Source: Qipengyuania algicida (lineage in GTDB: Bacteria; Pseudomonadota; Alphaproteobacteria; Sphingomonadales; Sphingomonadaceae). Taken from it: a stretch of DNA of 64,000 nt. The position numbers and the translations under genes are program-made. Position 1 is the stretch's first letter. The number at the start of each line of letters is the position of its first letter. Of the stretch, positions 7,317-42,409 are shown one piece after another. The notes under the pieces are model-generated. The model saw nothing but the letters and a program-made list of their open reading frames with translations, had not been told where the DNA came from and searched no databases. The DNA is taken from NCBI RefSeq assembly GCF_009828025.1, contig NZ_WTYA01000003.1, positions 124,001 through 188,000 of the forward strand. Direction: 5' to 3'.

Positions 7317-7330
7317 TGTTAGCGCTCACA
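7317..7330. promoter_or_regulatory. Putative LacI-type operator between divergent GH31 and GH3 genes
   Basis: TGTTAGCGCTCACA lies 56 bases upstream of the GH31 start and 41 bases upstream of the GH3 start, so it could serve both directions. It is the weakest match of the six because the right arm has one change from the palindrome. Confidence 0.6.
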
Positions 7331-9893: not shown

Positions 9894-9912
9894 AGCGCCC
9901 GAGCCAGAAATC

Positions 9913-21953: not shown

Positions 21954-22002
21954 TATGCTTGTCCATAGACCGCGCACGCGCTTTTCAGCAAGACCAGCGT
22001 CA

Positions 22003-24099
22003 TTATCCGGGAGCATCCGGAAATTCGAGCGCCTCGTAATAGGAAAGCGAATGTTCGGGCGGGCGTTCGCCGGCGGGTAGCGGCAGATGGTTGAGCGATT
22101 GCCAGTAGGCGATCGAGGCATCGCGCCACCAGCGCGCTTCCTTGCGTTGAATGGCCAGCGACGAAGCGACATCCACAAACCGCTCGTGATCGACGTATGG
22201 TTGCAACGTTTGCCATTCACGCGCCATCGAATCGACCGCCGCGACGCCGCGATCGTAACGCGAGATCAGTTCGTCCCACAAAGACTTGCCAGATTGGGTG
22301 CGGTAGCTCCAAGGAAGGTGATGGAACCAGAGCAGATCGTTCTCGTCCATCGTTCTGGGGTCGGCCCATTGGGCGGCCACTGAAGGCGCATATTGGGCCA
22401 ACGCATCGCTGCCAGACCTGGTGCGGTCGAAACCGATACCCTCGGCATCAGCACGATTGTAATAGCACGGATTCCATTCAGGCCGATCAAGCGTACAGAC
22501 CCAAGGCGCCGGACCGTAATGGTGACCGGTTCCCATCTGGTGCGCCAGACCGAGCGGCGTCATATAGTCGACCACCGCCTGACGGCTGGAAAGCATCATC
22601 GGGACCAACTGGCGCACAAAATTCGGGTTGCGTGAAAACGTCTGCCCTACCCATTCGCGCGCAATCTGATCGCTGGAAAGCGCGGGACTCCAAGCCAAGC
22701 GCCCAAATGCGTACCAATTGGCTTGATCAAACTGGTCGCCGGTCCAGTCTCTATCCGAACCGGTGTTGGCGACACCCGCCATTCCCGTCGGCTCGATAAC
22801 CTGCGCAACCGTTGCTCCATGCCCTGTCGGGGCGTCGAGCACTTCCTTCCATAGAGGGGCAAGGTAAACGATCCCGGTCGCCTGTCCCAGATACTCACGC
22901 GTGATCTGCGCTTCGAGCATCATCCTCGTGTGAGGCATCGCTCCGAACAGAGGGTGGAATGGCTCACGCGGCTGGAAATCGAGCGGCCCGTTTTTGACCT
23001 GCAGGATGACATTCGGCGCGAACTTGCCGTCGAGCGGCTTGAACTCTTCATATGCCTGCTTGACGCGGTCGGTCTCACCTGAGCTCGCATAAACGAATGC
23101 GCGCCAGATCACCGTGCCGCGATTTCCCAGCGCGGCGGCGAGCATATTCGCGCCTTGGGCATGGGTGCGATGATAATCCTGCGGTCCGGGCTGACCTTCG
23201 GAATTGGCTTTGACCAGGAAGCCCCCAAAATCGGGAATGGCTTGGTAAAGCTTGCCCGCCTGCGCTTTCCACCAGGCCTTCACTTGGGGAGCCAACGGGT
23301 CAGCGGTCTTCAAACCGCCCACCTCGATCGGCGCACTGAAACGCACTGAAATATAAAGCCGGATACCGTAGGGACGCCAAGCGTCAGCCAGACGCTTTAG
23401 CTTTGGCAGATAGCGCTCGGTCAGGAACAGCGGGCTGGCGTTGACATTATTGACCACCACGCCGTTTATCCCGATCGAGGCATTAGCTCTCGCATAGTCG
23501 ATCATCCGTGGCGACAATTCCTCGGGCAGATGCCACCAGTCGAAGATCGAACGTCCCGCGTATCCCCGCTCGACCGTGCCGTCGGGATTGTCCCAGTGGT
23601 CCAGCATCCTGAGCGGCATCGCCGGAGCCTGCGCCAGCTCAACCGTAGCCGGATCGCGGCCGAGCGACAGCTCACGCAGCAATGCAAAGGCACCGTAAAG
23701 ACATCCAACCGAATCGGCTGCCGAGATCGCAAGGAGTGAACGCCCGTTCGCCTGCTGGTGGGCGGCCACGTTAAAATGGCCTCGCGCACCGCTCGATCCG
23801 TCGTTGCAAGCAAGAACGATCGGAGAACCGCCAGAAGAGGCAGGCACATGGCCCAGCAGACCTGTGAGTCCGCGGCGCAGTTCCTCCTCGGCAACTTTCA
23901 CGCTGGGGTCGGCTTCACCGGTTTGCACCACGACCGGATTGAATTGGTCGAGACGCTCCTTGGCCGAACCCGTGAGTGGGGCATAGCGCAGCCACAAGGC
24001 GTAGCCGTCCTCTGCTGTCGCAGCATGGCCTGCCATAAGGAGAGCCAGCGCAGCAATACTTGCAGCTATTCGGTTGACAAGCGATCTCCCTCTCATCAT
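22003..24099 (-). CDS. GH67 alpha-glucuronidase, secreted
   Basis: Removes (4-O-methyl)-glucuronic acid from the non-reducing end of glucuronoxylan oligosaccharides. It has about 698 residues with a signal peptide (cleaved near AATA-ED). Catalytic candidates are the acid Glu 301 in LVKANSEGQPGP, Asp 374 in NGPLDFQPREP and Glu 396 in MMLEAQITREY, matching the inverting GH67 mechanism. The start is one of two adjacent ATGs (24099 or 24096). The first lies within the operator palindrome and no clear Shine-Dalgarno precedes either, so a leaderless or very short leader transcript is possible. It is first in an operon with the LacI-type gene and xylD, and divergent from tandem GH3 genes. Confidence 0.92.
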   Translation of the reverse strand: MMRGRSLVNRIAASIAALALLMAGHAATAEDGYALWLRYAPLTGSAKERLDQFNPVVVQTGEADPSVKVAEEELRRGLTGLLGHVPASSGGSPIVLACNDGSSGARGHFNVAAHQQANGRSLLAISAADSVGCLYGAFALLRELSLGRDPATVELAQAPAMPLRMLDHWDNPDGTVERGYAGRSIFDWWHLPEELSPRMIDYARANASIGINGVVVNNVNASPLFLTERYLPKLKRLADAWRPYGIRLYISVRFSAPIEVGGLKTADPLAPQVKAWWKAQAGKLYQAIPDFGGFLVKANSEGQPGPQDYHRTHAQGANMLAAALGNRGTVIWRAFVYASSGETDRVKQAYEEFKPLDGKFAPNVILQVKNGPLDFQPREPFHPLFGAMPHTRMMLEAQITREYLGQATGIVYLAPLWKEVLDAPTGHGATVAQVIEPTGMAGVANTGSDRDWTGDQFDQANWYAFGRLAWSPALSSDQIAREWVGQTFSRNPNFVRQLVPMMLSSRQAVVDYMTPLGLAHQMGTGHHYGPAPWVCTLDRPEWNPCYYNRADAEGIGFDRTRSGSDALAQYAPSVAAQWADPRTMDENDLLWFHHLPWSYRTQSGKSLWDELISRYDRGVAAVDSMAREWQTLQPYVDHERFVDVASSLAIQRKEARWWRDASIAYWQSLNHLPLPAGERPPEHSLSYYEALEFPDAPG

Positions 24100-24161: not shown

Positions 24162-26576
24162 ATGCAAGCGATCAAGCGTCTCGCGCTCGCCGCCAGCGCC
24201 AGTGTGATGGTGCTGGCCTGCCCTATGGCATCTGCCACGCCAAGCAACGAAGCGGCCACCGCCATTCCGCCAAAACCGATGGCGAACGCGCCCTATTGGA
24301 ACGCGAAACTCCCGGTTGCAGAACGTGTTGCAGACCTGATGAAGCGCATGACGCTGGAGGAAAAGGTCGCTCAGATGGTGTCCACTTGGGTCAACAAGAC
24401 CAAGATTCAGGATTCCGATTACAATTTCGATCCGGCAAAGGCGACAGCCCGATATCCCAATGGCTTGGGTTTCTTCACGCGTGCGTCCGACAAGGAGGGC
24501 CCGGGCAGTCCCCGCGTTTTGCCGCCGCGCTCAATCGTAGAAAGCATCGCATATGTGAACGCGGTCCAGCGCTGGTCACGTGAGCATACGCGCCTCGGCA
24601 TTCCGGTTCTCTTCCACGAGGAGTCGCTTCACGGCCTTGCCGCCCGTGATGCGACAAGTTTCCCAGTACCGATGGGGCTTGCCTCCACTTGGGATCCGAA
24701 CCTTGTCCGTACGGTCAATACACTGATCGCGGGCGAGGTCCGTTCGCGCGGCGTCTACCAGGTCCTCTCCCCTGTCGTAGACGTCGCGCGAGATCCGCGC
24801 TGGGGACGTATCGAAGAAACCTTCGGCGAAGACCCGTTTCTTGTGGGTGAAATGGGAGTGGCAGCGGTCGAAGGGCTGGAAGGACCGGGCAAGGACCCCA
24901 AGCTTGCCCCGGGCCATGTATTGGCAACGCTCAAGCACATGACCGGGCACGGAGAACCGCAAAGCGGCACCAATGTCGGGCCTGCAAACATGGGCGAGCG
25001 CGAACTGCGGTCTGTGTTTTTCCCTCCGTTCAAGCAAGTGGTCGATCGCACGGCGGTGGCCTCTGTCATGGCGAGCTATAACGAGATCGACGGCATTCCC
25101 AGCCATTCGAACAAATGGCTGCTGGCCGAAGTGCTGCGCAAGGAATGGGGATACCCGGGCGCGGTCGTATCCGATTACGAGGGCATCGAGCAACTCGACG
25201 ATCTGCACCACGTGACCAAGGATTACGCCGGCGCGGCACGCATGGCGCTCGAAGCCGGCGTGGATGTCGATTTCCCTGATGGAGAAGCCTATTCGACGCT
25301 CCTTCAGCAGGTGAAGGATGGCAAGATTCCGGAATCCGCCATCGACAATGCGGTCAGGCTGATCCTGACGATGAAATTCAATGCCGGACTGTTCGAACAT
25401 CCCTTCGTCACCGACATCAAACCAGCCCTTGCCTCCGATGGTCCGGCTGGACAGGCGCTCGCCCGCAAGGCCGCTGCCGAATCACTGATCCTGTTGAAGA
25501 ACGACGGAGCGTTGCCTTTGTCCCTGCCAACGGACGCGGAACACAAGCCGACGATCGCGGTCATCGGGCCGAATGCCAATGTCGCCCGGCTCGGCGGATA
25601 CTACGGTATTCCGCGCAGCACGGTCAGCCCGCTTGCAGGAATCCGCGCATTGGTCGGCAATCGCGCGAACATCGTTTTCTCGCCCGGTGTGGTGATTACC
25701 AAAAATGACGACTGGTGGGCGGACAAGGTCGAATTGGGCGATCCGGCGAAAAACAAGGAAATGATTGCTCAAGCGGTCCAGGCAGCGAAGAATGCCGACA
25801 CCATCCTGCTGTTCATCGGCGATACCGAGCAGACCAGCCGAGAAGGCTGGGCGACCAACCATCTGGGTGACCGCGCCAGCCTCGATCTGGTCGGTCAGCA
25901 GAACGATTTGTTCAACGCACTCAAAGCGCTCGGCAAGCCGATCGTGGCGGTACTCGTTAACGGGCGTCCGCCAAGCTACCCCACAGTTGCCGCGAACGCC
26001 GACGCGATCCTGGAAACCTGGTATGCTGGCGAACAACAGGGCAATGCGATTGCAGACGCCCTGTTCGGACAGGTAAACCCGGGCGGGAAATTGCCAGTTA
26101 CCGTCGCGCGTTCCGTCGGTCAGATACCGATTTTCTACGACCACAAGCCGAGCGCATTGCGTGGCTATCTGTTTAGCGACGCAACGCCGCTTTATCCTTT
26201 CGGCTGGGGTCTGAGCTACACCAGCTTCAAGTTCGGTGCGCCGGTCCTTTCCGCAAGTACGATCAAGCCCGGCGAGGGGGTCAGCGTGCGCGTGCCCCTG
26301 ACCAACACCGGCAAGGTCGCGGGCGACGAGGTGGTGCAGGTCTATCTGCGTGACGAAGTCTCCAGCGTGACCCGCCCGGTTAAGGAACTGGCCGGGTTCC
26401 GACGCGTGACCTTGCAACCGGGCGAGACCAAACAGGTCGATATTGCGATCCGGCCCGATGCATTCGGCCTGTGGAACCGGCAGATGAAGTTCGTTACCGA
26501 ACCGGGCGCCTTCACCATAATGGTCGGCCCCAATTCGCAAGATTTGCAAAAGGTTGAGCTTAAGGTGACGCAATAG
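24162..26576 (+). CDS. GH3 beta-xylosidase/beta-glucosidase (first of tandem pair), secreted
   Basis: Exo-acting GH3 enzyme of the BglX/Xyl3 type (804 residues). Signal peptide ends near ASA-TP. The sequence shows RMTLEEKVAQMVSTW, HEESLHGL, SPVVDVARDPRWGRIEETFGED, KHMTGHGEPQSG, nucleophile Asp 338 in AVVSDYEG, the second domain (SLILLKNDGALPL, then VLVNGRPP) and a C-terminal fibronectin-III-like domain (GDEVVQVYLRDE). RDPRWGR plus KHMTGHG fits the xylosidase/glucosidase group. With GH67 opposite and GH10 downstream, release of xylose from xylo-oligosaccharides is likely. Closely similar to the next gene, with similar blocks and nearly the same length. Confidence 0.9.
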   Translation: MQAIKRLALAASASVMVLACPMASATPSNEAATAIPPKPMANAPYWNAKLPVAERVADLMKRMTLEEKVAQMVSTWVNKTKIQDSDYNFDPAKATARYPNGLGFFTRASDKEGPGSPRVLPPRSIVESIAYVNAVQRWSREHTRLGIPVLFHEESLHGLAARDATSFPVPMGLASTWDPNLVRTVNTLIAGEVRSRGVYQVLSPVVDVARDPRWGRIEETFGEDPFLVGEMGVAAVEGLEGPGKDPKLAPGHVLATLKHMTGHGEPQSGTNVGPANMGERELRSVFFPPFKQVVDRTAVASVMASYNEIDGIPSHSNKWLLAEVLRKEWGYPGAVVSDYEGIEQLDDLHHVTKDYAGAARMALEAGVDVDFPDGEAYSTLLQQVKDGKIPESAIDNAVRLILTMKFNAGLFEHPFVTDIKPALASDGPAGQALARKAAAESLILLKNDGALPLSLPTDAEHKPTIAVIGPNANVARLGGYYGIPRSTVSPLAGIRALVGNRANIVFSPGVVITKNDDWWADKVELGDPAKNKEMIAQAVQAAKNADTILLFIGDTEQTSREGWATNHLGDRASLDLVGQQNDLFNALKALGKPIVAVLVNGRPPSYPTVAANADAILETWYAGEQQGNAIADALFGQVNPGGKLPVTVARSVGQIPIFYDHKPSALRGYLFSDATPLYPFGWGLSYTSFKFGAPVLSASTIKPGEGVSVRVPLTNTGKVAGDEVVQVYLRDEVSSVTRPVKELAGFRRVTLQPGETKQVDIAIRPDAFGLWNRQMKFVTEPGAFTIMVGPNSQDLQKVELKVTQ

Positions 26577-30278: not shown

Positions 30279-33200
30279 TCAGAAGCTTCCGCGCAGGATG
30301 AACGAGAACCTGCGATCGTTCATGAAATACGATCTGGGTGCAAGATTGTTCGGGTCACCGCTGTAAGCCTGCAGGGTTTTGGTAACTTGATTTAACAGAT
30401 TGACGGCCTGCACACCGACTTTCACATGCTTGTTAACTGTGATGAACGCCGAGGCATCAAGCTGTCCGCCTGCGTCCTGGAAGATCGAAGTATACGGGAA
30501 TATCACGTCCGCAGCCGTCAAAAGGAACTTCGAGCGCCAGTTATAGGCGGCGCGCAAAGATACTGGGCCCTTCTCATAGAACAAGGTCGCATTGACGTTG
30601 TGCTTGGACAATCCTTCGAATGGCAAATTTCCGACAGCAGTTTGTGACGACACATTGGTCACAGGAGTCCCGCCGTTGAGGAACGAGTTCGGCAGTCCCG
30701 AACTGTCGATATAGGAATAGTTCCCGGTAAAGCCGAGACCACTCAAGATACCCGGCAGGAAGTCGAAAGTCTGCTGATAGGCGATCTCGACTCCCTTGAT
30801 CTTGCCGTGACCATCGTAGTTGGCCGGCCCTCTAGTTAGGAAGTCGAACGCAACACCATTGTTCTCGATTGGGCTCGATACGACCGACTGGTAGAAGAAT
30901 CCTTGCACGTCCTTATAAAATGCATCGATGGTCAGTGACCCAACACGCGAGAAATACCACTCCGCAGTCAAGTCGAACTGCCACGCCGTCGCAGGCTTGA
31001 GATAGGGATTGCCTACCTGGCTCTGGAAATTGCCGTTACCATCAATGCTGATCGACTGATAAGCACGCACAAGCGAAAGTTCAGGCCGCGTCAAAACCTT
31101 GGACGCAGCGAACCGGATCAGGAAGTCGTTGGAAAGTCCAAGCTTCACGTTGAGGGAGGGAAGCCAATAGGAGTAATGGTTAACCGCCTGCGTCGGAATG
31201 ACAGTTGGGCTTTGCCCTAAGAAGTTTTGCAGTTGGTTATACCCGGTTTCGCCCAAGAGACACACGCCACTGGGAGAGCTCGATACCGGAATTCCGGGTA
31301 TTGGCGTAGGTGTCGGACACCGTTCAGCGTAAGTTTGCGTAACATTGAGGTCGGCCTGACTTGGAATTCGACTATTGCCGAAACTGCTCAACCGAGTGTT
31401 GACGAACCTAACGCCTACATTGCCTGCAAGCCTCGCACCTCCAAACACATCATCAGAATTGAAACTGAGCATCGCATAGGTTGCCCAATCATCCTGCTTC
31501 ACGCGCTGGACTTCATTCGGAAGGTAATCGGTGCCGGGGATCACACCCTCCCGACCCGCGAGTGGCACCCACGTCGAAGTTCCTCCGTTTGCAGAGAACT
31601 GGTTTTCGATCTGGTTCAGGAAATCAACTGTGCCCTGATAGTTATTTATCAGATCTCCAGAATAGTAGTACGCTGCAGGAGGCGCATTCGTCGCTCCGCG
31701 GAAGAAATTCTGGAAGTCGTACAATGACGCCTGACCGGAACCGTACTGATTGATCGAGACCGGCTGAGCATTGTTCGACCAAACTTCGCTTAACATACCC
31801 CAGTTATAGGTAGAGTAACGCACCGTCTCATCGCGACCGGCATAACGGAAACCGAAGTCGAGCTTCTTCAGGAAGCTGTCGTCTTCAAAATCATAGGTCG
31901 TGTCAGCCTTGAACTGATATTCGTCACCTTCGCTGTGTTCGGCATGGTCCATCGCCGCCCGCCAGAATTGGACACGTGAGTCAGCAAAATATGCAGCATC
32001 CCCTTCAGCATTGGGGCCCTCCAAAACAGGATTCTTAGGATTGGCCCAAGTCGCGGAAATAGTGTTTGGCTTGTGCGAAATAATTGTTGGGAGACGACCC
32101 GTAGTATCAAGTTCCTGATCTGCATATGTTGAGCCGAAGACGCTGAAATCAAGCTGAGTATGCTTGGAATGAGTGTAGTCGGCATCAAGGGCGATATGCC
32201 AGCGATCGCTCGGATGAATCTCCGCATTTAAACCATAGTCGGAATTGGTATTGGTTTCATAAACCTGCCGACGCGAGAGTGAGATAGGCATTCCGCCTGT
32301 TGGAATGAACGTCGTCGATGGATTACCGCTTGCACCGGTACGATAACCCGTGCCAGGCAAAGTGATGTAACCGCTTTGGAACAGGCCGTTCGAATCGTAA
32401 GTATAGTTCGTGAAGCTTCCGACTGGACATTCAGCGCGGGTCGTGCCGGTGTTGGTGTCCGTTGGATTCACCAACGGGCCATTCGTGTTTTGCTGACAGC
32501 CGATCGGGTAAGTATTGTATTCCGAGAGGTCAGGAGCGGCCTCGAAAGTATGCTCGCCCCAAGCGTTGGTCGTATGCGAGCGAATATATTGACCGGTTAA
32601 CTTGAACGACCCATCGTTCGTTTCAAATTGTGCAGCCAGCGCAACGCCGTCACGCTTGCGATCGTAGTCCTGGCTACGGTATTGCCCACCGAGAGGAGCA
32701 TAAAGTCCCGGCTGCGTGTCGGCGAAACCGTCCGCGCCAGGCGTTTCCGCGGTCCCACAGGGTGAATGCGATGCTGGCAAGGTGGTAGTGTCAGTGTCAC
32801 CCGGCAGCGGGTTGCGGCATATGAATTGACCTCCCTGGCTTTGATAAACCGTGCCCTGATTGTCGCGCAGCTGATAATTGGTGATCTGAATGCCGTCCGC
32901 GCGACTGCGGATACGCGAATAGGAGACATCCGCCAACAGCCCAAATCGGCCGGCCCCCGTGTCCCAGGTGTCGCTGATCAGAAACGATGCCGTCGGCGAC
33001 CATTTCTTTTCGAAATCACCGTAATTGCCCTCAAGGTCATAGCCGATATGGAGCCCGCCACCGTTGTCAAAAGGCTTGCGCGTGTTGAGATTGACAGTGC
33101 CGGCAAGACCACCCTCAGTCATAGCGGCCGTGGCATTCTTGTAGACCTCCACGGAACCGAGCAATTCGGCTGGCACATCAGCAAAATTCAATGACTGCCC

Positions 33201-33695
33201 ACCAATACCTGCCGAAAACGCATCACGACCATTGAACTCGGAACGAACAAAATTGAGACCGCGAACAGTCACGCCCGATCCTTCGACCGAAAAGTGGTCT
33301 GGGTCATTTGATCCTGCGAAGCGACTGACCTGAACACCCGGCACTCGCTGAAGCGCTTCCGTTACCGAGCGATCCGGCAACGCGCCGATGTCTTCTGCCG
33401 TTATTGCATCCACAACCGTGTCGGAGTTGCGCTTGATCGCTTGAGCGTTGGCGAGACTTGCGCGAATGCCGGTCACGACAATGACATTGCTGGACGAGGG
33501 ACCACTATCGACGCCTGAGGATTGGGTGTTGGCCTGCTGAGAACTATCGACCGAGCCATCCTGTGGCGAATTTTCTTGAGCCAAGACCGGCACACTTGCA
33601 AGCAACACGCCTAATGCCAGCGCAGAAGTGCCCGCCCTCAACCAAACCGAAGGCGACCCAGAGCGCGAATAGAGTTTTGCCGACAGATCAAGCAT
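30279..33695 (-). CDS. TonB-dependent outer-membrane receptor
   Basis: Outer-membrane importer, probably for xylo- or xyloglucan-oligosaccharides. It has 1138 residues, with a signal peptide ending near VLAQ-EN and a low-complexity Ser/Gln linker. The plug domain (VIVVTGIRASLANAQAIKRNSD, ALPDRSVTEALQRVPGVQV, VYKNATAAMTEGGLAGTVNL) is followed by a long beta-barrel ending in RRFSFILRGSF, with the usual C-terminal Phe. GGGAGGG precedes the ATG. The IRASLANAQAIKRNSD-type plug belongs to the large sphingomonad/caulobacter sugar-receptor group. Divergent from the halogenase-like genes, with operator 33709-33722 between. No SusD-like partner is present, as expected outside Bacteroidetes. Confidence 0.93.
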   Translation of the reverse strand: MLDLSAKLYSRSGSPSVWLRAGTSALALGVLLASVPVLAQENSPQDGSVDSSQQANTQSSGVDSGPSSSNVIVVTGIRASLANAQAIKRNSDTVVDAITAEDIGALPDRSVTEALQRVPGVQVSRFAGSNDPDHFSVEGSGVTVRGLNFVRSEFNGRDAFSAGIGGQSLNFADVPAELLGSVEVYKNATAAMTEGGLAGTVNLNTRKPFDNGGGLHIGYDLEGNYGDFEKKWSPTASFLISDTWDTGAGRFGLLADVSYSRIRSRADGIQITNYQLRDNQGTVYQSQGGQFICRNPLPGDTDTTTLPASHSPCGTAETPGADGFADTQPGLYAPLGGQYRSQDYDRKRDGVALAAQFETNDGSFKLTGQYIRSHTTNAWGEHTFEAAPDLSEYNTYPIGCQQNTNGPLVNPTDTNTGTTRAECPVGSFTNYTYDSNGLFQSGYITLPGTGYRTGASGNPSTTFIPTGGMPISLSRRQVYETNTNSDYGLNAEIHPSDRWHIALDADYTHSKHTQLDFSVFGSTYADQELDTTGRLPTIISHKPNTISATWANPKNPVLEGPNAEGDAAYFADSRVQFWRAAMDHAEHSEGDEYQFKADTTYDFEDDSFLKKLDFGFRYAGRDETVRYSTYNWGMLSEVWSNNAQPVSINQYGSGQASLYDFQNFFRGATNAPPAAYYYSGDLINNYQGTVDFLNQIENQFSANGGTSTWVPLAGREGVIPGTDYLPNEVQRVKQDDWATYAMLSFNSDDVFGGARLAGNVGVRFVNTRLSSFGNSRIPSQADLNVTQTYAERCPTPTPIPGIPVSSSPSGVCLLGETGYNQLQNFLGQSPTVIPTQAVNHYSYWLPSLNVKLGLSNDFLIRFAASKVLTRPELSLVRAYQSISIDGNGNFQSQVGNPYLKPATAWQFDLTAEWYFSRVGSLTIDAFYKDVQGFFYQSVVSSPIENNGVAFDFLTRGPANYDGHGKIKGVEIAYQQTFDFLPGILSGLGFTGNYSYIDSSGLPNSFLNGGTPVTNVSSQTAVGNLPFEGLSKHNVNATLFYEKGPVSLRAAYNWRSKFLLTAADVIFPYTSIFQDAGGQLDASAFITVNKHVKVGVQAVNLLNQVTKTLQAYSGDPNNLAPRSYFMNDRRFSFILRGSF

Positions 33696-33708
33696 GTTCC
33701 CTCCCTGA

Positions 33709-33722
33709 TGTTAGCGCTACCA
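33709..33722. promoter_or_regulatory. Putative LacI-type operator between TonB receptor and halogenase-like operon
   Basis: TGTTAGCGCTACCA lies 13 bases upstream of the receptor ATG, a classic repressor position. It is 118 bases before the divergent halogenase-like gene. Confidence 0.7.
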
Positions 33723-33840
33723 CTTTTGAATGTCGCTGGATGCGCTTTATGACTTATCTGACTATCTCGTGCTGGGGCAGTTGGCAAGCATCCAATACGC
33801 AGGCATAAAAAGAGCCGACAGTGGTGGCAGGTTTGCAACA

Positions 33841-35373
33841 ATGCACGATAGCGGTAACAAAATTGAGCGAGTGATCATTGTAGGGGGGGGCACGGCTGGC
33901 TGGATGGCAGCGGCTGCATTATCGCGCTTTCTTAATGACGGTCGACGAAAAATCATCCTTGTCGAATCCGATGACATCGGGACGGTCGGAGTGGGAGAAG
34001 CGACCATCCCGCCGATCATCAACTTCAATCAGATGCTGGAGATCAACGAGAACGAGTTTCTTCGCGCTACGCGCGGGACGTTCAAGTTGGGGATCGAGTT
34101 CGTCAATTGGGGACGCGTCAGCGACCGCTACTTCCATCCATTCGGGACGTTCGGTCACGATCTGCATGGGATTTCATTTCACCAATTATGGCTGCGAGCG
34201 CACCGCCGTGGTGAGTCCGGCGATCTTGGTAAGCACTCGATAAGCACCGTTGCTGCCACGATGGGCCGCTTTGCCAGGCCTGGTCCCGAAGCCAAGCCCC
34301 CGCTTCGCGAGATCTTCTACGCCTTTCATCTCGACGCTAGCCTCTACGCCCGGCTGCTGCGGAGTGTAGCTGAAAAACATGGTGCCCAGCGCTGCGAGGG
34401 CAAGATCGTCAAGGTGCGCCGCCACGCAGAAAGTGGCGACGTCGAGGCGGTCGAGCTTGAAGGCGGTCGACTGATCGCCGGGGACATCTTCCTCGACTGC
34501 TCCGGTTTTCGCGGGCTGCTGATGGGGAAAACCCTCAACGTCGACTACGAAGACTGGTCGCATTGGCTGCCCACCGATCGGGCAATCGCCGTACAGACGG
34601 CCAATGTCGCCCCACCTGTGCCTTACACGCGCGCCACCGCACACGGGGCAGGTTGGCAGTGGCGCATTCCGCTGCAGCACCGGACAGGAAATGGCCATGT
34701 CTTTTCGAGCCGCTATATGGAAGAAGATGCCGCGCACAGGATACTGCTCGACAACCTCGACGGTGAGCCAATCACGGAGCCGCGTACCCTGTCCTTCAGA
34801 ACCGGCATGAGAAGCCAAGCGTGGAGCCATAACGTCGTGGCGCTGGGCCTGTCTTCAGGCTTTCTCGAGCCGCTCGAATCGACCAGCATCCATCTGATTC
34901 AGAACGGCATCCAGCGCCTTCTCGCACTGTTCCCGGACAAACCGATCAGTCCGCTGGAACGCGATGAATACAATCGCGGGATGCGCGAACTTTATGAGGA
35001 TGTGCGCGATTTCGTCATTCTGCATTACAAGGCAACCCAGCGCGATGACACTGAATTCTGGCGTTATGTTCGCGACATGGATGTGCCTGAAACACTAGCG
35101 CGTAAAATGGAACTGTGGCGGCTTCACGCGCGCGTTTTCAGGGAAAATGCAGAATTGTTCTCGCTGCCGAGTTGGGTCGCGGTGATGCTGGGTCAGAACA
35201 TCTGGCCCGAAAACTACGACCCTATGGCGGATTCGCTAGACGGGGCGAAAGTGGCAGAGGCCATGCGCGACATGCGCAACCGCTATGCCGATGTAGCAGC
35301 CAGATTGCCGACCCACGCAGAATTTCTCAGGATGTCCCGCGCCTGGGCCGATCCGGTCGCATCGGCAATCTGA
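33841..35373 (+). CDS. Tryptophan-halogenase-like FAD protein (copy 1)
   Basis: Flavoprotein of the tryptophan halogenase family (510 residues from ATG 33841); the real substrate is unknown. Visible motifs are the FAD loop VGGGTAGWM, VGVGEATIP, a Lys in TFKLGIEFVNW at the place of the halogenase catalytic Lys, the family signature GWQWRIPLQHR and GFLEPLEST. Such proteins are recurrent companions of TonB receptors in sphingomonads and caulobacters, and none there is known to me to halogenate free tryptophan. First of a three-gene set with a second halogenase-like gene (9-base gap) and a cupin-8 gene. Possibly regulated by the operator at 33709. Confidence 0.85.
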   Translation: MHDSGNKIERVIIVGGGTAGWMAAAALSRFLNDGRRKIILVESDDIGTVGVGEATIPPIINFNQMLEINENEFLRATRGTFKLGIEFVNWGRVSDRYFHPFGTFGHDLHGISFHQLWLRAHRRGESGDLGKHSISTVAATMGRFARPGPEAKPPLREIFYAFHLDASLYARLLRSVAEKHGAQRCEGKIVKVRRHAESGDVEAVELEGGRLIAGDIFLDCSGFRGLLMGKTLNVDYEDWSHWLPTDRAIAVQTANVAPPVPYTRATAHGAGWQWRIPLQHRTGNGHVFSSRYMEEDAAHRILLDNLDGEPITEPRTLSFRTGMRSQAWSHNVVALGLSSGFLEPLESTSIHLIQNGIQRLLALFPDKPISPLERDEYNRGMRELYEDVRDFVILHYKATQRDDTEFWRYVRDMDVPETLARKMELWRLHARVFRENAELFSLPSWVAVMLGQNIWPENYDPMADSLDGAKVAEAMRDMRNRYADVAARLPTHAEFLRMSRAWADPVASAI

Positions 35374-35382
35374 GAGCGAACG

Positions 35383-36903
35383 ATGATCGAACACCGCATC
35401 CGCAAGATCGTTATCGTCGGTGGCGGGACCGCCGGATGGATGGCCGCCGCTGCATTGGCTCGGGTACTGGGCTCGGCACCCGGATTGGAAATTGTCCTGA
35501 TCGAATCCGATGAAATCGGAACGGTCGGCGTGGGAGAATCAACCATCCCGCAAATCCAGCTGTTCAACAGCATGTTGGGGATCGACGAAGGTGACTTCGT
35601 TCGTGAAACCAACGCGACTTACAAGCTAGGCATCGAATTTGTCGACTGGACCCGGCTTGGCGAACGGTTCGTTCATCCTTTCGGCTTCTACGGGCTCGAC
35701 ATGATGGGGATCGAATTCCACCACTTCTGGCTGAAGGGCCGCCAACTCGGTGATGCCACGCCGCTAAATGACTATTCGCTGGCGATTGTCGCTGGCCTTG
35801 CCGGGCGCTTCGCCCACCCCCGGCCCGACTTGCCAAACTCTCCGCTGTCCAAGATCAGCTATGCCTTCCAGTTCGACGCCGGGCTTTATGCCCGGATGTT
35901 GCGCCGTCGGGCTGAAGCGGCAGGAGTTGCCCGGATTGAAGGCCGGATCGTTGCAGTTAAAAAGAGCAGCGAACCGGAGAGGATCGATAGCGTCGAACTG
36001 CGCTCAGCCGAGCAGGTTCAGGGCGACCTATTCATCGACTGCTCGGGCTTTCGCGGCCTGCTGATCGAACAGGAGATGCAATCCGGCTACGAAGACTGGA
36101 CCCATTGGCTGCCATGCGATCGCGCGGTCGCGGTGGGGTGCGAAAATGGTGGCGACCGCCTTCCCCTTACCCGTGCCACAGCACGCGAAGCAGGTTGGCA
36201 ATGGCGCATCCCGCTCCAGCACCGGATCGGCAATGGATACGTCTATTCGAGCGAATATGTCTCCGATGACGAGGCTAGCGCAGTCTTGCTGAGCCGCCTC
36301 GACGGTGCACCGCTAGGTGAACCCCGAATGTTGCGCTTCACAGCCGGGCATCGCAAGCGGCAGTGGATCGGCAACGTTGTTTCGATTGGCCTTGCCGCAG
36401 GGTTTCTCGAACCGCTTGAGTCGACAAGTATTCACCTCGTGCAGGTGGCGATCGCAAAGCTGCTTGCCTATTTTCCGACGCTACGCTTCGACGAGGGCGA
36501 GATCGGCCGGTTCAACGCAGAAATGGCGCAGGAGTTCGTCGATATCCGGGATTTTCTTGTCCTGCATTACATCGCGACACAGCGGACCGACACGCCGTTC
36601 TGGCAACGTTGCCGAACTCTCACCCCTCCGCCCGGTGTGCAACAGAAGCTCGACATGTTCAGGACCAACGGACGCATCTTCCGTGAACACAACGAGATTT
36701 TCACCGAAACCAGCTGGCTGGCGGTGTTGACCGGCAAAGGGATTGAACCACGCGGATATCACCCTGTGGCCGATCTGCTCTCCGATCAGGAAACGCTCGA
36801 ACGGCTGCAGAACATCCGTTCCGTGGTTCGCGACACTGCCGACGCGATGTTGCCTCAGGATGAGTGGCTGGATCAAATTCGCGCGCAAGGACGAACTGCG
36901 TGA
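35383..36903 (+). CDS. Tryptophan-halogenase-like FAD protein (copy 2)
   Basis: Second flavin-dependent halogenase-like protein (506 residues), clearly paralogous to the one before it. It shows VGGGTAGWM, VGVGESTIP, Lys in TYKLGIEFVDW, IDCSGFRGLL, GWQWRIPLQHR and GFLEPLESTSIHL. All the residues expected for FAD binding and HOCl handling are kept, so it is probably an active flavoenzyme. No flavin reductase gene is adjacent, so reduced FAD would have to come from elsewhere. Its TGA overlaps the GTG start of the downstream cupin-8 gene. Confidence 0.87.
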   Translation: MIEHRIRKIVIVGGGTAGWMAAAALARVLGSAPGLEIVLIESDEIGTVGVGESTIPQIQLFNSMLGIDEGDFVRETNATYKLGIEFVDWTRLGERFVHPFGFYGLDMMGIEFHHFWLKGRQLGDATPLNDYSLAIVAGLAGRFAHPRPDLPNSPLSKISYAFQFDAGLYARMLRRRAEAAGVARIEGRIVAVKKSSEPERIDSVELRSAEQVQGDLFIDCSGFRGLLIEQEMQSGYEDWTHWLPCDRAVAVGCENGGDRLPLTRATAREAGWQWRIPLQHRIGNGYVYSSEYVSDDEASAVLLSRLDGAPLGEPRMLRFTAGHRKRQWIGNVVSIGLAAGFLEPLESTSIHLVQVAIAKLLAYFPTLRFDEGEIGRFNAEMAQEFVDIRDFLVLHYIATQRTDTPFWQRCRTLTPPPGVQQKLDMFRTNGRIFREHNEIFTETSWLAVLTGKGIEPRGYHPVADLLSDQETLERLQNIRSVVRDTADAMLPQDEWLDQIRAQGRTA

Positions 36904-37928
36904 GCGATGCGGTTGCCAGGCTTCGAACCGCATCTGAAATCCAAGAGATCGATGCGGCGGACCTGACCGATTTCGACAACGACGTTCGCGGACTTGGAGC
37001 CCCTGCGGTTCTGCGTGGCCTGGTGAAAGCATGGCCGCTGGTCGCGGCGGCAAACGATGGCGACGCTGCGGTGGTCGGCTACCTTTCGCAGCGTTACAAC
37101 GGCCAGGGGATCACTGGGATTATCGGCGACACAGTTGGTAACCGGCGACTGTTCTATAATGACGACGTGACCCGGTTCAACTTCGAGCGGGTGTCGGGCC
37201 GCCTCGATTCCTTTCTCCGTCAATTGCTGCAGGAGAACAAGCAGAGCGAAGTCTTTGCAATGGCCCTGCAATCGACATTGATCGATGAAATCCTGCCGAC
37301 GGTTGCCGCAGAAAATGCGCTCGCGCTGCTGCCCGGTATCCGGCCGCGGATCTGGATCGGCAACCGGATCGAGGTTGCACCGCATTACGACCTGAAAGAG
37401 AACATCGCCTGCTGCGCTGCCGGACGGCGCCGGTTCACGCTGTTCCCACCCGATCAGTTGGCGAACCTGTACCCCGGACCTCTGGAACTCACGCCTGCGG
37501 GAACGCCGGTGAGCATGGTCAATCCAAAGAATCCCGATCTCGCCCGTTATCCTAGGTTTGCCGAAGCGTGGGCCGCGGCGAGCCAAGCCACTCTAGAGCC
37601 GGGAGATGCACTCTATATTCCCTTTGGCTGGTGGCACGGGGTGGATTCGCTCGAACCCATCAGCATCCTGGTCAATTACTGGTGGACTGCCGCAAGAACC
37701 GATGACGTCGGCAATGGCTACGATGCCATGCTCCACGCGCTGATGTCCTATCGTCACCTGCCCCCCGAACAGCGCGGGATTTGGCGTAGTATGCTGGACT
37801 TTTATGTTTTCGAACAGGCGGGTGACCCTGTGAGCCATTTACCATCGCACGCCAAGGGGGTGCTCGGTCCGCCGTCTGCAAAGCTCTTCGCGATGATGCG
37901 CGCCACTCTCAAGCGCGCGCTAGGTTAG
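36900..37928 (+). CDS. Cupin-8/JmjC-like Fe(II)/2-oxoglutarate-dependent protein (second copy)
   Basis: Probable iron/2-oxoglutarate oxygenase of unknown target, paralogous to the protein at 9913. Iron ligands are suggested by PHYDLKEN (HxD) and PFGWWHGV (distal His), with RRRFTLFPPD and the shared block TPVSMVNPKNPDLARYPRF. GTG 36900 overlaps the halogenase-like stop (GTGA) and gives 342 residues, so it is the third coupled gene of this set. Its 3' end overlaps the convergent degenerate halogenase-like gene by 20 bases. Confidence 0.82.
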   Translation: MSDAVARLRTASEIQEIDAADLTDFDNDVRGLGAPAVLRGLVKAWPLVAAANDGDAAVVGYLSQRYNGQGITGIIGDTVGNRRLFYNDDVTRFNFERVSGRLDSFLRQLLQENKQSEVFAMALQSTLIDEILPTVAAENALALLPGIRPRIWIGNRIEVAPHYDLKENIACCAAGRRRFTLFPPDQLANLYPGPLELTPAGTPVSMVNPKNPDLARYPRFAEAWAAASQATLEPGDALYIPFGWWHGVDSLEPISILVNYWWTAARTDDVGNGYDAMLHALMSYRHLPPEQRGIWRSMLDFYVFEQAGDPVSHLPSHAKGVLGPPSAKLFAMMRATLKRALG

Positions 37929-39369
37929 CCAGCACCCCCTCCAACCAGCTGGTGTACTGTGGCGCGAACGCGAGCGCCGATTGCACCTTGGCATTCAAAG
38001 CTGAAACCGCGGCCTGCGTGTTCTGCGTCTTTTCCTGAGGCGGTACTCCAGGACAAAATCCTAACGCTATCAACAGATTGGTCATAACCGAATTGGAGAA
38101 GGGAGCCTCTTCCCGAAAGATCGTCCGCCCGCGCCGTTCATATTGGTCACGTAACCGTTCCACGTCATCGGATAACGCAATCGGTCCGAACTGCACAGCT
38201 GCGGCAGGGGCGATGTAATGGAGCGCAAGCGTATCTCGAACCGCATCCATCATGAGGCTGGCGCGGCGATTGTATTCGATCCGTTCGAGCGGCTCGATCC
38301 GGCGACCGGGAAGCATCTCGATCAACAGATCGAGCTGTCTGTGCGCAAGGTCGAGATTGAGCGCGGCCACCGGTTCGAACCTGGCGGAAGCATCGCCCAG
38401 TGCGAGGACATTTCCGATCCACGGATCGATGCAGCGGCCCGGTTCCAGGTCGAACGCTATGAGCGGAGGTGCACCGAGCGCACGCAGCGCTACTTCTTCG
38501 GCTGCGCCGGGCGCAATGCCGAGAGTGACCTGCAGCCCATCCCTGCCGGCCAGTTCGTACCGCCATCCCTCCGGCAGAAGAGTCACACGATCCTCCAGCG
38601 CTACCAACGGTCGTCCGGGACGGGATAGGATGAGCTTGCGGACCGGCAGATTGTTCGACCAGTCCAAGGTTTCGAAATCGGGCAAGGTCGACAGCAGTGC
38701 TGCGCTCGGGCCGCTGCAATCGACGAAGAGATCGGCCGCAATGGGTTCCGTCCCGGTGAGCGAGACCGATGCGATACCGCCGTGACCGTCCGGTTCCACA
38801 CCAAGAAGGTTTCCGGGAAGATAGGACACCCCCAACTGCTGGGCTATGGCGATCAGCAGGTCGCGATAGGCTTGCGGGTTCCAGCGCAAAGCGTAATCGA
38901 TTTCAGCAAGCGGCCCCGCCTCGCCTGGAGGAATTACGGCAAATCGACCAGCTTCCGCGAGCGCTTGCGCCGGCGAAGTGGGGGATGCGACCATGCTAGC
39001 GCCCTGACGCCCCCCGCCCCATTCGCGAGCGAAACGCGATGCCATCGCAGGCTCTGTCCCGGTAGAATAAGGCACCGCGGCTTGCTGCCCCGGTCCACCC
39101 CACCCCACGTATCGGGTGATCAGGCGATGGCTGGCCCCGGCCTTCGCAACGAGCGCCAATTCATCGATGCCAAGGCGATCGTGCAGGCGGTTGGTAAAGG
39201 GCAGAGCCGTTGCCGCGCGGTCGGCCAATGCTCCGGGGTCGATCGGAATACCCAGCACAACGACCTCGGCCGACGGCAGCGCGCGTTTAAGCGCAATCGC
39301 AGCGAGAACGCCCAGCTGACCAGCTCCCGCGATAACGATGCGTCGCAAGGCTTCGCGCGGTTCGGTCAT
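37909..39369 (-). CDS. Degenerate halogenase-like flavoprotein homologue
   Basis: Divergent member of the same family (486 residues). The fold can be followed (IVIAGAGQLGVLAAIAL, DLFVDCSGPSAALL, ALGDASARFEPVAALNLDLAH, the RDTLALHYI segment). However, the GGGTAGW loop has become GAGQLGV, the catalytic-Lys segment reads HRLITRYVGWG with no Lys at the expected place, and the GWxWxIP signature has become GWRYELAG. It is therefore unlikely to halogenate and may be a partner or regulatory subunit of its neighbours. The frame is intact over its full length, so it is not an obvious pseudogene. ATG overlaps the stop of the upstream halogenase-like gene (ATGA). Confidence 0.75.
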   Translation of the reverse strand: MTEPREALRRIVIAGAGQLGVLAAIALKRALPSAEVVVLGIPIDPGALADRAATALPFTNRLHDRLGIDELALVAKAGASHRLITRYVGWGGPGQQAAVPYSTGTEPAMASRFAREWGGGRQGASMVASPTSPAQALAEAGRFAVIPPGEAGPLAEIDYALRWNPQAYRDLLIAIAQQLGVSYLPGNLLGVEPDGHGGIASVSLTGTEPIAADLFVDCSGPSAALLSTLPDFETLDWSNNLPVRKLILSRPGRPLVALEDRVTLLPEGWRYELAGRDGLQVTLGIAPGAAEEVALRALGAPPLIAFDLEPGRCIDPWIGNVLALGDASARFEPVAALNLDLAHRQLDLLIEMLPGRRIEPLERIEYNRRASLMMDAVRDTLALHYIAPAAAVQFGPIALSDDVERLRDQYERRGRTIFREEAPFSNSVMTNLLIALGFCPGVPPQEKTQNTQAAVSALNAKVQSALAFAPQYTSWLEGVLANLARA

Positions 39370-40892
39370 GCAGCCTCGGCCAACCGTGCAGCTTCGCTTT
39401 CGAGGAATTGGCGGTGATCCGGCATCGCCAAGACCTGTTGGGTGATTGCTTCCCGCAACCGATCCAGTGCACGCTTGATCTGCTCGGGTGGTGGTATCGC
39501 CGCGCGAGAGTCATGCGTTTCCGGGACCCAGCCCTGCCCCAGATACACTGCAATCCAGCTGGCGTCATAGAACAGCCCATCGGCGTATTTCTCGACCCGC
39601 CCGGTCCGGCGCCAAAGGTCCATCTTTGCCGCGAGGCTGTCCGGTACTTTCATGGTCCGGACGTGGTTCCAGAATTCCGAATCGTCGCGCGTGGTCGCAT
39701 GGTAGTGCAGGATAAGGAAGTCGCGCACGCGGTCGTATTCCATGTCGACCAGCCGGTTGAATTCGTCCCTGTCGCGCGCATCGATCCCACCATCGGTAGG
39801 GAATAGTTCGATCAGATAGGTGATTGCCATCTGAGCGAGGTAGATTGAGGTGGATTCGAGCGGTTCGAGAAAGCCGCTCGACAAGCCAACGCCGATAACA
39901 TTATGCGACCACGAACGACGGCGGCGCCCTGTGCGAAAGCGCAATATCCGCGGATCGGCGAGCGGCTCTCCACACGCATTGGCCTCAATCTCCGCGCACG
40001 CGGCATCTTCGTCGAGGAAGCGGCTCGAAAAGACGTAACCATTGCCCATGCGGTGTTGCAGCGGGATTTCCCAGCGCCATCCAGCAGGCATGGCGCTAGC
40101 CGTGGTATAGGGTTTGAGAGGCATACCCTTCTTGTGCGAACAGGGCATCACTGCGGCGCGGTCACACGGCAGCCACTGCGACCAGTCTTCCCAGTCTTCC
40201 TCCAGTTCCTGCCCCAGCAGCAGCGAACGAAAGCCCGAGCAGTCGATGAATAGATCGCCATCCAGCCGCCGCCCGTCGCTCAACAACAGCGCCGTGACGT
40301 TCCCGTTTTCAACATCTCGCTCGACTGCGGTCACCAGCCCCTCGTGCCGGGTAACGCCCAGCTTCACGCCATGATCGCGCATAAACGGGCCGAACAATGT
40401 CGCATCGAACTGGTAGGCGTAGCCATAGGTTGAGGCGAGGCTGCTGTCGTGGAGCGGCGGAGTGAAGCGATTGGCCTGCGCAGCGGCCACGGCCAGCGAA
40501 TAATCGCCGATCGGTCCGGCCAGCCCCTGACGCGCAAGCTCCAGCCAGTAGTGGTGGAAGCCGAGCCCGGCAACGCTCTCGCCGAAACTTCCGAAAGGAT
40601 GAATATAGCTGGTGCCGATGCTGCCGAAATCCCGGAAGTCGATACCCAGCTTGTACGTCGCGTGAGTAGCTTTCATGAACGCCGCTTCGTCGATGCCCAA
40701 CCGCTCGACGTATCCGCGGATATGCGGCAGTGTCGCCTCGCCCACGCCTACGATGCCGATGTCCTCGCTCTCGACGAGATCGACTGTCGCAAGGCCCGGT
40801 AGCAGGGCGGCGATGCCTGCGGCGGACATCCAGCCTGCCGTGCCGCCGCCGAGGACGACGACACGGACAGGTTTGATTTCATGTTCCCCCAT
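39366..40892 (-). CDS. Tryptophan-halogenase-like FAD protein (copy 3)
   Basis: Third intact halogenase-like flavoprotein (508 residues from ATG 40892). Motifs are VLGGGTAGWM, VGVGEATLP, Lys in TYKLGIDFRDF, IDCSGFRSLLL, GWRWEIPLQHR and GFLEPLESTSIYL. A TTG at 40928 would add 12 residues and has GGAGGG about 11 bases upstream. I prefer the ATG because paralogues begin a few residues before the FAD loop, though both are possible. It lies directly after the XylE-like symporter on the same strand and overlaps the degenerate homologue, so it is probably co-transcribed from the promoter carrying operator 42396-42409. Confidence 0.86.
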   Translation of the reverse strand: MGEHEIKPVRVVVLGGGTAGWMSAAGIAALLPGLATVDLVESEDIGIVGVGEATLPHIRGYVERLGIDEAAFMKATHATYKLGIDFRDFGSIGTSYIHPFGSFGESVAGLGFHHYWLELARQGLAGPIGDYSLAVAAAQANRFTPPLHDSSLASTYGYAYQFDATLFGPFMRDHGVKLGVTRHEGLVTAVERDVENGNVTALLLSDGRRLDGDLFIDCSGFRSLLLGQELEEDWEDWSQWLPCDRAAVMPCSHKKGMPLKPYTTASAMPAGWRWEIPLQHRMGNGYVFSSRFLDEDAACAEIEANACGEPLADPRILRFRTGRRRRSWSHNVIGVGLSSGFLEPLESTSIYLAQMAITYLIELFPTDGGIDARDRDEFNRLVDMEYDRVRDFLILHYHATTRDDSEFWNHVRTMKVPDSLAAKMDLWRRTGRVEKYADGLFYDASWIAVYLGQGWVPETHDSRAAIPPPEQIKRALDRLREAITQQVLAMPDHRQFLESEAARLAEAA

Positions 40893-40934
40893 AGACTGGA
40901 TGCTAGTGCCGGAGTGGCTGACGCTCAATCCTGA

Positions 40935-42356
40935 TCAGCCCTCCATCTCCTCCAGTTCCTTGCCCTTCGTCTCCTCGATGAAGCGACCAACCAGGAAAAA
41001 GCTGATGACAGCGCAGACAGCGTAGAAGGTGTAACTGATCGTCAGCCCCAGGCTGGTCGCCATGATCGGGAAACTGACCGTTATGCCGAAGTTGGCGACC
41101 CATTGAAAAAGACCGGCCACTGCCAGCGCCGATCCGCGGATCTGGTTGGGAAACATCTCCCCCAGCATCACCCACATCACCGGCCCCCAGCTGACATTGA
41201 AGAAAATCACGTAAAGATTTGCCGCGATCACAGCGACGAGTCCCATTGACTTCGTCAGCTGCAAATTGCCGGCCAGGTCGAGACTGCCCTGGCTGAAGGC
41301 ATAGACCATCACGAACAATGCCACAGCCATACCAGCCGAACCGATCAGCAACAGAGGCTTGCGCCCGATCTTGTCAATCACCCCAATGGTAACCAGGCAC
41401 GCTGCAATCGAAACCAGGCCGGAAATAATGTTCCTTTCCAGGGCAGCCGATTCTGAAACGCCCGCAAGTTTCCAAAGGGTCGAGCCATAATAAAAGATAA
41501 CATTGATACCGACCAACTGCTGAAACACGGCCAGCATGATACCCACCCAGACAATCGGGCGAACACCCAGAAAACCTTTCTTCCCCGTCGGCACCAACAC
41601 ATCGCGGAGACGCGGACGATGGTCAGCAGCGAAACTTGCGCGAATTTCTTCGATCTTGGCCTTGACGACGACCTCACCAAACAGGCGGCCCAGAACACCG
41701 CCGGCTTCATCGTGACGCCCCTTCGACACCAGAAAGCGAGGGCTTTCGGGAATAAAGAACAGAGCGACGAGAAACACCGCCGCCGGTATTGCCTGAGCGA
41801 GGAACATCCACCGCCACGCTTCTAGCCCCAGCGCCAGTACCGCCGTCGAATCCTGACCAGCGGACTGCTGGAACACGTAATTGACCACGAAAGCGGCAGT
41901 GATACCGGAAATAATCATGATCTGTTGCACCGTGGTCATCCGACCGCGAATATTCGCAGGGGCGACTTCGGAGATGTAGGCAGGAGACAGCACGCTGGCC
42001 GCGCCGACCGCCAAACCACCGGCGATTCGGGCAATCAGGAATTCGAGGTGACTGTGCGCCAGGCCCTGAACGATGGCCGCGATCACAAACACGAACGCAG
42101 CAATGCGCATCACGGCGCGCCGCCCGATCCGGTCAGCCAGTGCGCCAGCCGAAAATGCGCCTATCGCGCAGCCGATCAGCAATGATGCAACGGTAAATCC
42201 CAGTCCACCCACGCTGAGATCGAAGGTCTTGGTAAGCCCGGCTTCGGTGCCATTGATGGCGCCGCTGTCGTAGCCGAATAGCAAACCGCCAATCGTCGCG
42301 ACCGCGACGATGCCGGAAATGAGCGCCATATTGGCGCGACCCTCATTGGGTTGCAT
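40935..42356 (-). CDS. Sugar/H+ symporter of the MFS sugar-porter family (XylE-like)
   Basis: Inner-membrane D-xylose (or related sugar) proton symporter, 473 residues with 12 predicted helices. It shows GGLLFGYDSGAING in TM1, DRIGRR in the first cytoplasmic loop, PESPRFLVSKGR after TM6, QQLVGINVIFYYG in TM7, DKIGRKPLL and a C-terminal EETKGKELEEME, all typical of the sugar porters that include E. coli XylE. GGAGA precedes the ATG. The operator 42396-42409 lies 40 bases upstream, supporting xylose control. It is the first gene of an operon with two halogenase-like genes. Confidence 0.9.
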   Translation of the reverse strand: MQPNEGRANMALISGIVAVATIGGLLFGYDSGAINGTEAGLTKTFDLSVGGLGFTVASLLIGCAIGAFSAGALADRIGRRAVMRIAAFVFVIAAIVQGLAHSHLEFLIARIAGGLAVGAASVLSPAYISEVAPANIRGRMTTVQQIMIISGITAAFVVNYVFQQSAGQDSTAVLALGLEAWRWMFLAQAIPAAVFLVALFFIPESPRFLVSKGRHDEAGGVLGRLFGEVVVKAKIEEIRASFAADHRPRLRDVLVPTGKKGFLGVRPIVWVGIMLAVFQQLVGINVIFYYGSTLWKLAGVSESAALERNIISGLVSIAACLVTIGVIDKIGRKPLLLIGSAGMAVALFVMVYAFSQGSLDLAGNLQLTKSMGLVAVIAANLYVIFFNVSWGPVMWVMLGEMFPNQIRGSALAVAGLFQWVANFGITVSFPIMATSLGLTISYTFYAVCAVISFFLVGRFIEETKGKELEEMEG

Positions 42357-42395: not shown

Positions 42396-42409
42396 TGGTA
42401 GCGCTACCT
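42396..42409 (-). promoter_or_regulatory. Putative LacI-type operator of the symporter operon
   Basis: TGGTAGCGCTACCT differs from a perfect palindrome only at its last base. It lies 40 bases before the symporter ATG. A second imperfect palindrome centred on AACGTT (42446-42464) lies about 40 bases further upstream. Confidence 0.7.

Follow-up and report, generated by a model that had tools for sequence, protein, structure and literature searches.

A family of halogenase-type flavoproteins linked to TonB-dependent receptors, and its conserved degenerate partner, in Qipengyuania algicida and relatives

The window analysed here, a 64,000-nucleotide stretch of Qipengyuania algicida DNA (contig NZ_WTYA01000003.1, positions 124,001 to 188,000), carries at 30279–42356 a module comprising a TonB-dependent receptor, three intact flavin-dependent halogenase-type proteins of family PF04820, a degenerate fourth homologue, a Cupin_8 protein and a sugar porter. 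Across genomes the halogenase genes are found beside one family of receptors, whatever the sugar for which the neighbouring enzymes are suited. The degenerate homologue is a conserved component under purifying selection, and it is paired with one particular type of intact halogenase. Judging from gene order and sequence, modification of the receptor itself would be the best reading of the function of the set.

The receptor (30279–33695, minus strand) scores 660 bits on TIGR01782 (TonB-Xanth-Caul; cut-off 310). The gap between it and the first halogenase gene holds an operator-like near-palindromic site, TGTTAGCGCTACCA (33709–33722), and then, on the plus strand and nearly without gaps, come halogenase 1 (33841–35373; PF04820, 631 bits), halogenase 2 (35383–36903; 618.5 bits) and a Cupin_8/JmjC-like protein of the FIH type (36900–37928; PF13621, 207 bits), the GTG start of which overlaps the stop codon of halogenase 2. 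The open frame of halogenase 1 extends from 33730, and 33841 is the likelier start because the protein that begins there does so right before the flavin adenine dinucleotide (FAD) motif. A second operator-like site, TGGTAGCGCTACCT (42396–42409), lies upstream of the porter gene. Behind it starts the minus-strand set: the sugar porter, a XylE-like member of the major facilitator superfamily (40935–42356; PF00083, 381 bits; TIGR00879, 366 bits against a cut-off of 238), halogenase 3 (39366–40928; 583 bits), which is of the type that pairs with a degenerate homologue, and the degenerate homologue (37909–39369; 166 bits), the last two genes overlapping by 4 bp. On the XylE equivalog model the porter reaches 374 bits, below the cut-off of 608; the label 'XylE-like' is thus correct and identity with XylE is not established. 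All four homologues exceed the PF04820 cut-off of 21 bits, and halogenases 1, 2 and 3 each contain GxGxxG and the catalytic lysine and glutamate. The two sets are convergent and overlap at 37909–37928. In its composition, its convergence and the presence of an operator-like site before each set, the module is as the original prediction described it.

The own genome encodes ten PF04820 proteins and seven TIGR01782 receptors above the cut-off. When this genome and 25 relatives were surveyed together (26 genomes), 49 of 54 PF04820 genes were found within 10 kb of a TIGR01782 receptor gene; seen from the receptor side, a PF04820 gene lies within 10 kb of 28 of the 46, and for 25 of these the distance is at most 1 kb. 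Eight genomes lack a TIGR01782 receptor at E 1e-60, and none of them yields a PF04820 match. The one unlinked gene of the own genome (contig 16, locus L004) adjoins a receptor of another type, and the other four belong to G002 and G013. At one locus of G002, a member of the same genus (L104, contig 86), the match to the halogenase gene falls into three pieces, one in a different open frame, and the gene looks broken; no TIGR01782 receptor lies within 10 kb of it.

We also compared coordinates, by eye, in a class-wide sample of 76 genomes including the own one, seven of which have a TIGR01782 receptor at the threshold used (E 1e-80). Besides the own genome only G035 has PF04820 genes above 560 bits, and each of its seven PF04820 genes has a TIGR01782 receptor no more than 4 kb away. 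Six lower-scoring family genes (394–461 bits) from six other genomes are not near such a receptor: none is present in five of these genomes at E 1e-80, and that of G037 is more than 500 kb distant. Finally, we inspected 80 wider loci around the best public relatives of halogenase 2, a similarity-chosen and therefore non-random set drawn from the alpha, beta and gamma classes of proteobacteria. Of these loci 71 contain a TonB receptor, which is TIGR01782-like or belongs to one of three other clusters; in 62 it lies within 1.5 kb. Of the nine loci lacking one, eight are cut short, on one side or both, about 5.3 kb or less from the halogenase genes, and L063 has no TonB receptor within about 10 kb on either side. 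These counts strongly support the recurrence of such enzymes near TonB receptors that the original prediction had mentioned.

What varies is the rest of the neighbourhood. The main receptor cluster is found in 68 of 86 loci, and the next most frequent families, GH3 and Cupin_8, in 22 each. Depending on the locus, the neighbouring enzymes are GH10, GH43, GH115 and GH3, or alpha-amylase, GH97 and pullulanase, or a GH9 or glucoamylase-like protein. Since the same family occurs in xylan, alpha-glucan and other loci, the genes follow the receptor and not xylan, and the originally suggested involvement with xylan or with aromatic groups on it is not supported. The placement beside receptors whatever the sugar suggests that the likely target of the halogenases is the receptor protein and not xylan. 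Receptor and nearest homologue are inherited together: in the own genome and genus, distances between receptors and between their nearest homologues are correlated (Mantel r 0.78, 22 loci, none of 2000 permutations as high), and for 14 of the 22 loci the nearest receptor agrees with the nearest homologue; over all 78 pairs r is 0.48.

The lysine and the glutamate are the catalytic residues of flavin-dependent halogenases. The role of the lysine is described in the accessible parts of PMC5945002 and PMC7336383. We aligned 218 homologues (>430 residues, >150 bits) and took retention of both residues as the definition of an intact protein. By this definition 187 are intact, halogenases 1–3 of the window among them; GxGxxG is present in all 187 and GWxWx(I/V)P in 176. 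The remaining 31 lack the lysine, the glutamate or both: five keep the lysine, three the glutamate, 17 GxGxxG and none WxWxIP. In the degenerate protein of the window the lysine is replaced by arginine and the glutamate by alanine, WxWxIP is lost and GAGQLG is kept. Its predicted model (mean predicted local distance difference test (pLDDT) score 90.9, predicted TM-score (pTM) 0.90) matches the fold of BrvH, Xcc4156 and other halogenases, with a best TM-score of about 0.84; it is thus a protein of predicted halogenase fold that we do not class as a halogenase.

By this length and score filter, none of the 69 loci with one or two homologues has a long degenerate copy, whereas such copies are present in 15 of 22 loci with three and in 16 of 16 with four, and where present in these three- or four-homologue loci they occur exactly once. 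Five loci (L034, L049, L054, L056 and L078) have a shorter or more diverged degenerate copy in the same place; four of the five are among the seven three-homologue loci without a long one. The 31 long copies span alpha- and gammaproteobacteria and form one branch in two trees, the second built without the catalytic columns, with support of 99 in each, to which long-branch attraction may contribute. Directly upstream of 29 of them lies a complete halogenase gene with intact motifs, at an intergenic distance of -49 to +12 bases in 21 pairs; the larger overlaps of the other eight look like start sites called too early. All 29 upstream genes, and with them halogenase 3, fall within a single 36-member FastTree clade (support 99), although in a second tree, made with a better model from 99 rows, the partner type is not a single branch and needs two changes. 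The other two degenerate copies, in L007 and L011, have an incomplete upstream gene, cut by a contig end and a masked stretch, in which the catalytic lysine cannot be read; the twelve best BLAST matches of these genes all lie within the 36-member clade. Counting these two, the degenerate partner is kept in 36 of the 38 loci that have the partner type. Both the receptor family and PF04820 are matched in the genome of Caulobacter vibrioides, and on a contig from a strain of this species (L079) receptor, partner, degenerate copy and another homologue follow one another. A contig-cut homologue, L009 3–536, has EPLEWT, as do the degenerate copies of L008 and L085, where intact proteins have EPLEST; it is probably the end of another degenerate copy and was left out of the counts.

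Distances between partners and distances between degenerate copies are strongly correlated (Mantel r 0.87, 29 loci, none of 2000 permutations as high), a value that includes shared species history. For the four degenerate pairs with dS (the synonymous substitution rate; dN, the non-synonymous rate) below 1, dN/dS is 0.15–0.28, and therefore the protein is kept by selection. Intact orthologue pairs from the same locus pairs (n = 9, at least 80% identity, one non-orthologous pair of 57% identity left out) give 0.08–0.15. The original description of the fourth homologue as degenerate is hence right as to its motifs; as to its status it is a conserved and paired component under purifying selection, not a gene in decay. 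That it is instead a slowly decaying duplicate in a neighbourhood without functional meaning, its genes travelling with receptor loci and acting elsewhere, is very improbable: dN in the four closest degenerate pairs is about 2–3 times that of same-locus intact orthologues, but 31 copies on one branch, found in alpha- and gammaproteobacteria behind one halogenase type and under purifying selection, speak against it.

The closest structures to halogenase 2 in the PDB are 9luq, 6y1w (Xcc4156) and 6frl (BrvH). Inspection of the alignment shows K81, E346, GGGTAGW and GWQWRIP intact, the same motifs as in BrvH (Brevundimonas BAL3) and Xcc4156 (Xanthomonas campestris), which are indole-brominating PF04820 enzymes; the intact proteins add new members to the BrvH-type halogenases. 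According to the available parts of PMC5945002 and PMC7336383, both characterized enzymes have an open active site and are inactive on free tryptophan; BrvH is a dimer with low activity on indole, its open site is likened to that of the peptide halogenase MibH, and a second halogenase gene adjoins its gene (PMC5945002). Peptides or larger substrates are suggested for the open sites by the authors, who leave the natural substrate open (available parts of PMC5945002 and PMC7336383). The position of the family beside one receptor family, with any sugar, makes this question directly testable on a named protein. The word TonB appears in the main text of neither paper, and the portions available to us name no dead partner. 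MibH acts on tryptophan within its substrate peptide. Xcc4156, however, shows 26% identity to MibH, with which it does not group closely (PMC7336383, in the part available), and no precursor peptide gene was seen in the intergenic space of the two gene sets of the window, the only space inspected for one.

As for the loci, the module resembles the carbohydrate utilisation loci with TonB receptors (CUT loci) of Xanthomonas, which are conserved in part in Caulobacter and Sphingomonas and where receptor genes stand with degradative enzymes; xylan and maltodextrin versions exist, and the receptor genes are induced by xylose or xylan, or by maltose (PMC1790865, available part). They differ in that the word 'halogenase' is absent from the main text of that paper. 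An association of halogenases with TonB receptors was not found in literature titles or the beginnings of abstracts, in searches that most subscription journals lay outside. The accessible text of PMC11337851 reports tryptophan-halogenase transcripts of phages and of Colwellia and, separately, a TonB receptor; it speculates on halogenases in virus-host receptor interactions and does not describe the linkage to receptors. TonB is not mentioned in the available part of PMC8269204, nor halogenase in those of PMC2996990 and PMC10766802. As far as these searches go, which did not cover most subscription journals, the dead partner and the receptor linkage are undescribed.

We propose, tentatively and at something below an even chance, that the three halogenases, the dead homologue and the FIH-like cupin modify aromatic side chains of the receptor before its export. 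A xylose-responsive repressor would switch on both gene sets together with the receptor. The proteins with intact motifs would bind reduced FAD (FADH2), which a flavin reductase with its gene elsewhere in the genome would provide, and would form an oxidant of the hypohalous or peroxy kind; their open active site would take a tryptophan-containing stretch of the unfolded receptor in the cytoplasm, which would become halogenated or hydroxylated. Halogenase 3 and the dead homologue, presumably translationally coupled given the 4-bp overlap, would pair as a heterodimer where a homodimer is usual, with the dead subunit holding the substrate chain. The cupin would hydroxylate another side chain of the same protein, and the modified loop residues could improve sugar binding or protect the receptor. 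Given the open sites of the relatives and the placement beside the receptor whatever the sugar, the receptor is the most economical substrate; the pairing of partner and degenerate copy is a plain feature of the loci, and the receptor as substrate and the chemistry are hypotheses of ours.

Several results weigh against this proposal. No flavin reductase was found in the set, and the sole PF01613 match of the genome is on another contig. In the 26 genomes 18 of 46 TIGR01782 receptors have no PF04820 gene within 10 kb, and five of the seven receptor-bearing genomes of the class-wide sample (G028, G037, G040, G056 and G077) have no linked gene at E 1e-80, so modification cannot be required for all receptors. 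The wider loci, moreover, were selected for their likeness to halogenase 2 and not at random. Distances of paralogue pairs within the same genome hardly correlate (r 0.13, 17 comparisons). As to the pairing, L023 has three homologues, none of them degenerate, and L028 and L030 keep a partner-type halogenase without a degenerate homologue. The latter two loci are from Caulobacteraceae, one titled Brevundimonas, and in both the partner halogenase follows a transporter-looking gene.

Nor is any one tryptophan of the receptor universal. Its AlphaFold model shows a plug and a barrel (mean pLDDT 82, pTM 0.83), and the best 50 PDB matches listed by a fold search are all TonB-dependent receptors; going by the order of the strands, residues 628–728 would be a single long extracellular loop with W632, W639, W709 and a helix. 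We compared 103 receptors, calling unlinked those without a homologue within 2.5 kb (78 linked, 25 unlinked). The tryptophan columns at reference positions 632, 639, 709 and 1053 are commoner in linked receptors, and W632 occurs in 49 of the 78 linked receptors and in none of the 25 unlinked. Also to be set against the proposal, W632 marks one receptor clade, and alpha-glucan receptors lack both W632 and W639. On the tree of the 103 receptors linkage changes only six times, and the five phylogenetically independent contrasts that supported branches allow do not suffice for a test. Hence a single universal target residue is not supported. The search for a target by comparing linked and unlinked receptors thus failed, with five usable contrasts; within one clade W379 and H134 were among the top correlates of the presence of the partner type, again with five contrasts, and a correspondence of W709 between xylan-type and alpha-glucan-type receptors was discarded as it shifted between two alignments.

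An alternative that accommodates the lack of a universal receptor tryptophan is that the target is another receptor-associated protein or peptide, for instance TonB, a lipoprotein of the cell surface or a small peptide whose gene lies elsewhere. Linkage to the receptor would be expected here too, and MibH is a precedent for a peptide substrate. Yet no second gene family is as constant nearby as the receptor, which is in 68 of 86 loci against 22 each for GH3 and Cupin_8, and we consider this alternative unlikely. There is little space for a peptide gene within the two gene sets of the window, to which this observation applies; a surface peptide encoded there, one of the substrates originally entertained, is improbable because the intergenic gaps are short, with the operators occupying the two longest.

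Equally, the proteins might act on an imported compound, aromatic groups of xylan or free indoles and phenols, after uptake through the receptor. The operator-like sites that the halogenase sets and the uptake genes have in common fit this. The family is, however, also found beside receptors in loci with alpha-amylase, GH97 and pullulanase, the glucans of which carry no aromatic groups. BrvH and Xcc4156 do take free indole and derivatives in vitro, but the activity of BrvH on indole is low and in its authors' view indole may not be the natural substrate (available parts of PMC5945002 and PMC7336383). On balance an imported substrate seems improbable to us.

The intact proteins could, lastly, be flavin monooxygenases or sensors of oxygen or redox state, the cluster tuning uptake to the redox state of the cell. 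Bromide is scarce in soil and fresh water, so bromination may be a side activity in vitro, and the dead homologue demonstrates that the fold can be retained without the catalytic residues. We regard this as rather improbable in view of the 187 intact homologues, which keep lysine and glutamate (the residues that define the class) along with GxGxxG, 176 of them GWxWx(I/V)P as well, and of the two characterized relatives, BrvH and Xcc4156, which halogenate according to the available text on them.

A conserved dead halogenase paired with one intact type would give this enzyme class a new kind of subunit. Halogenation or hydroxylation of outer-membrane receptors, if it occurs, would to our knowledge add a new class to the protein modifications of bacteria. 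The most far-reaching version would have three proteobacterial classes mature their outer-membrane sugar receptors by aromatic halogenation or hydroxylation, using an active/dead pair that is near-obligate in two of the classes, with the dead halogenase as substrate-holding subunit, and an FIH-like helper, this being the natural job of BrvH and Xcc4156. Taken jointly, all of this is doubtful.

FIH, an asparaginyl hydroxylase, is the best PDB match of the cupin at 36900–37928 (E 9e-18), the likeness covering only 114 query residues. HYD and a later WWH of FIH are kept in the alignment, stretches that we take to contain the metal ligands (HxD...H). At E 1e-25 there are 11 Cupin_8 genes in five of the 26 genomes, and all five genomes have PF04820 genes; for eight of the 11 a halogenase gene or receptor is at most 1.5 kb away, and for the other three it is about 12–17 kb distant on the same contig. 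One of these three is the second Cupin_8 gene of the window (9835–10917, plus strand; PF13621, 214 bits), which did not figure in the original prediction and is flanked by GH3 (7371–9893) and GH5 (10992–11990) genes, with an operator-like site at 7317 before the former. From its neighbours, this protein may belong to the set and serve the same receptor.

We scanned the whole window for the operator pattern TGNTANCGNTANCA, allowing at most one mismatch. It holds nine matches against 0.72 expected, an approximately 12-fold excess that none of 100 shuffles reaches; the site at 42396–42409 has one mismatch. At least three of the nine (14515, 33846 and 38059, one mismatch each) are inside open frames and may be chance occurrences. 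Further sites lie at gene starts, at 4281, 7317 and 12126 (aldehyde dehydrogenase-like, GH3 and FAA hydrolase by profile scans), and at 24099, between the frames 22003–24099 and 24162–26576; the proposed regulon may therefore span much of the window. In Caulobacter such motifs are bound by the LacI-type xylose repressor XylR, and the sites of the window may belong to a regulon of this kind. A LacI-family protein (20847–22220, minus strand; PF00356, PF13377) is the likely candidate for a reader of these operators; its frame opens too early, the DNA-binding domain being at residues 113–158, and its gene adjoins one for an ILVD/EDD-family dehydratase. Among the 103 receptors, 16, including that of the window, have near their start a site that matches the pattern at each of its ten fixed bases, a count made without a chance control; the remainder have no such site or another palindrome. 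In L110, L117 and L119, which have receptors of the same clade and one halogenase gene each, the palindrome TGTGAACGCTCACA is found about 80 bases before the receptor frame, and these receptor/halogenase pairs may answer to a different repressor. Near the halogenase genes of L004, L025, L027 and L038 we observe members of a cluster assigned to DUF6445 (PF20043) from a scan of one member, possibly another modifying enzyme on the same theme.

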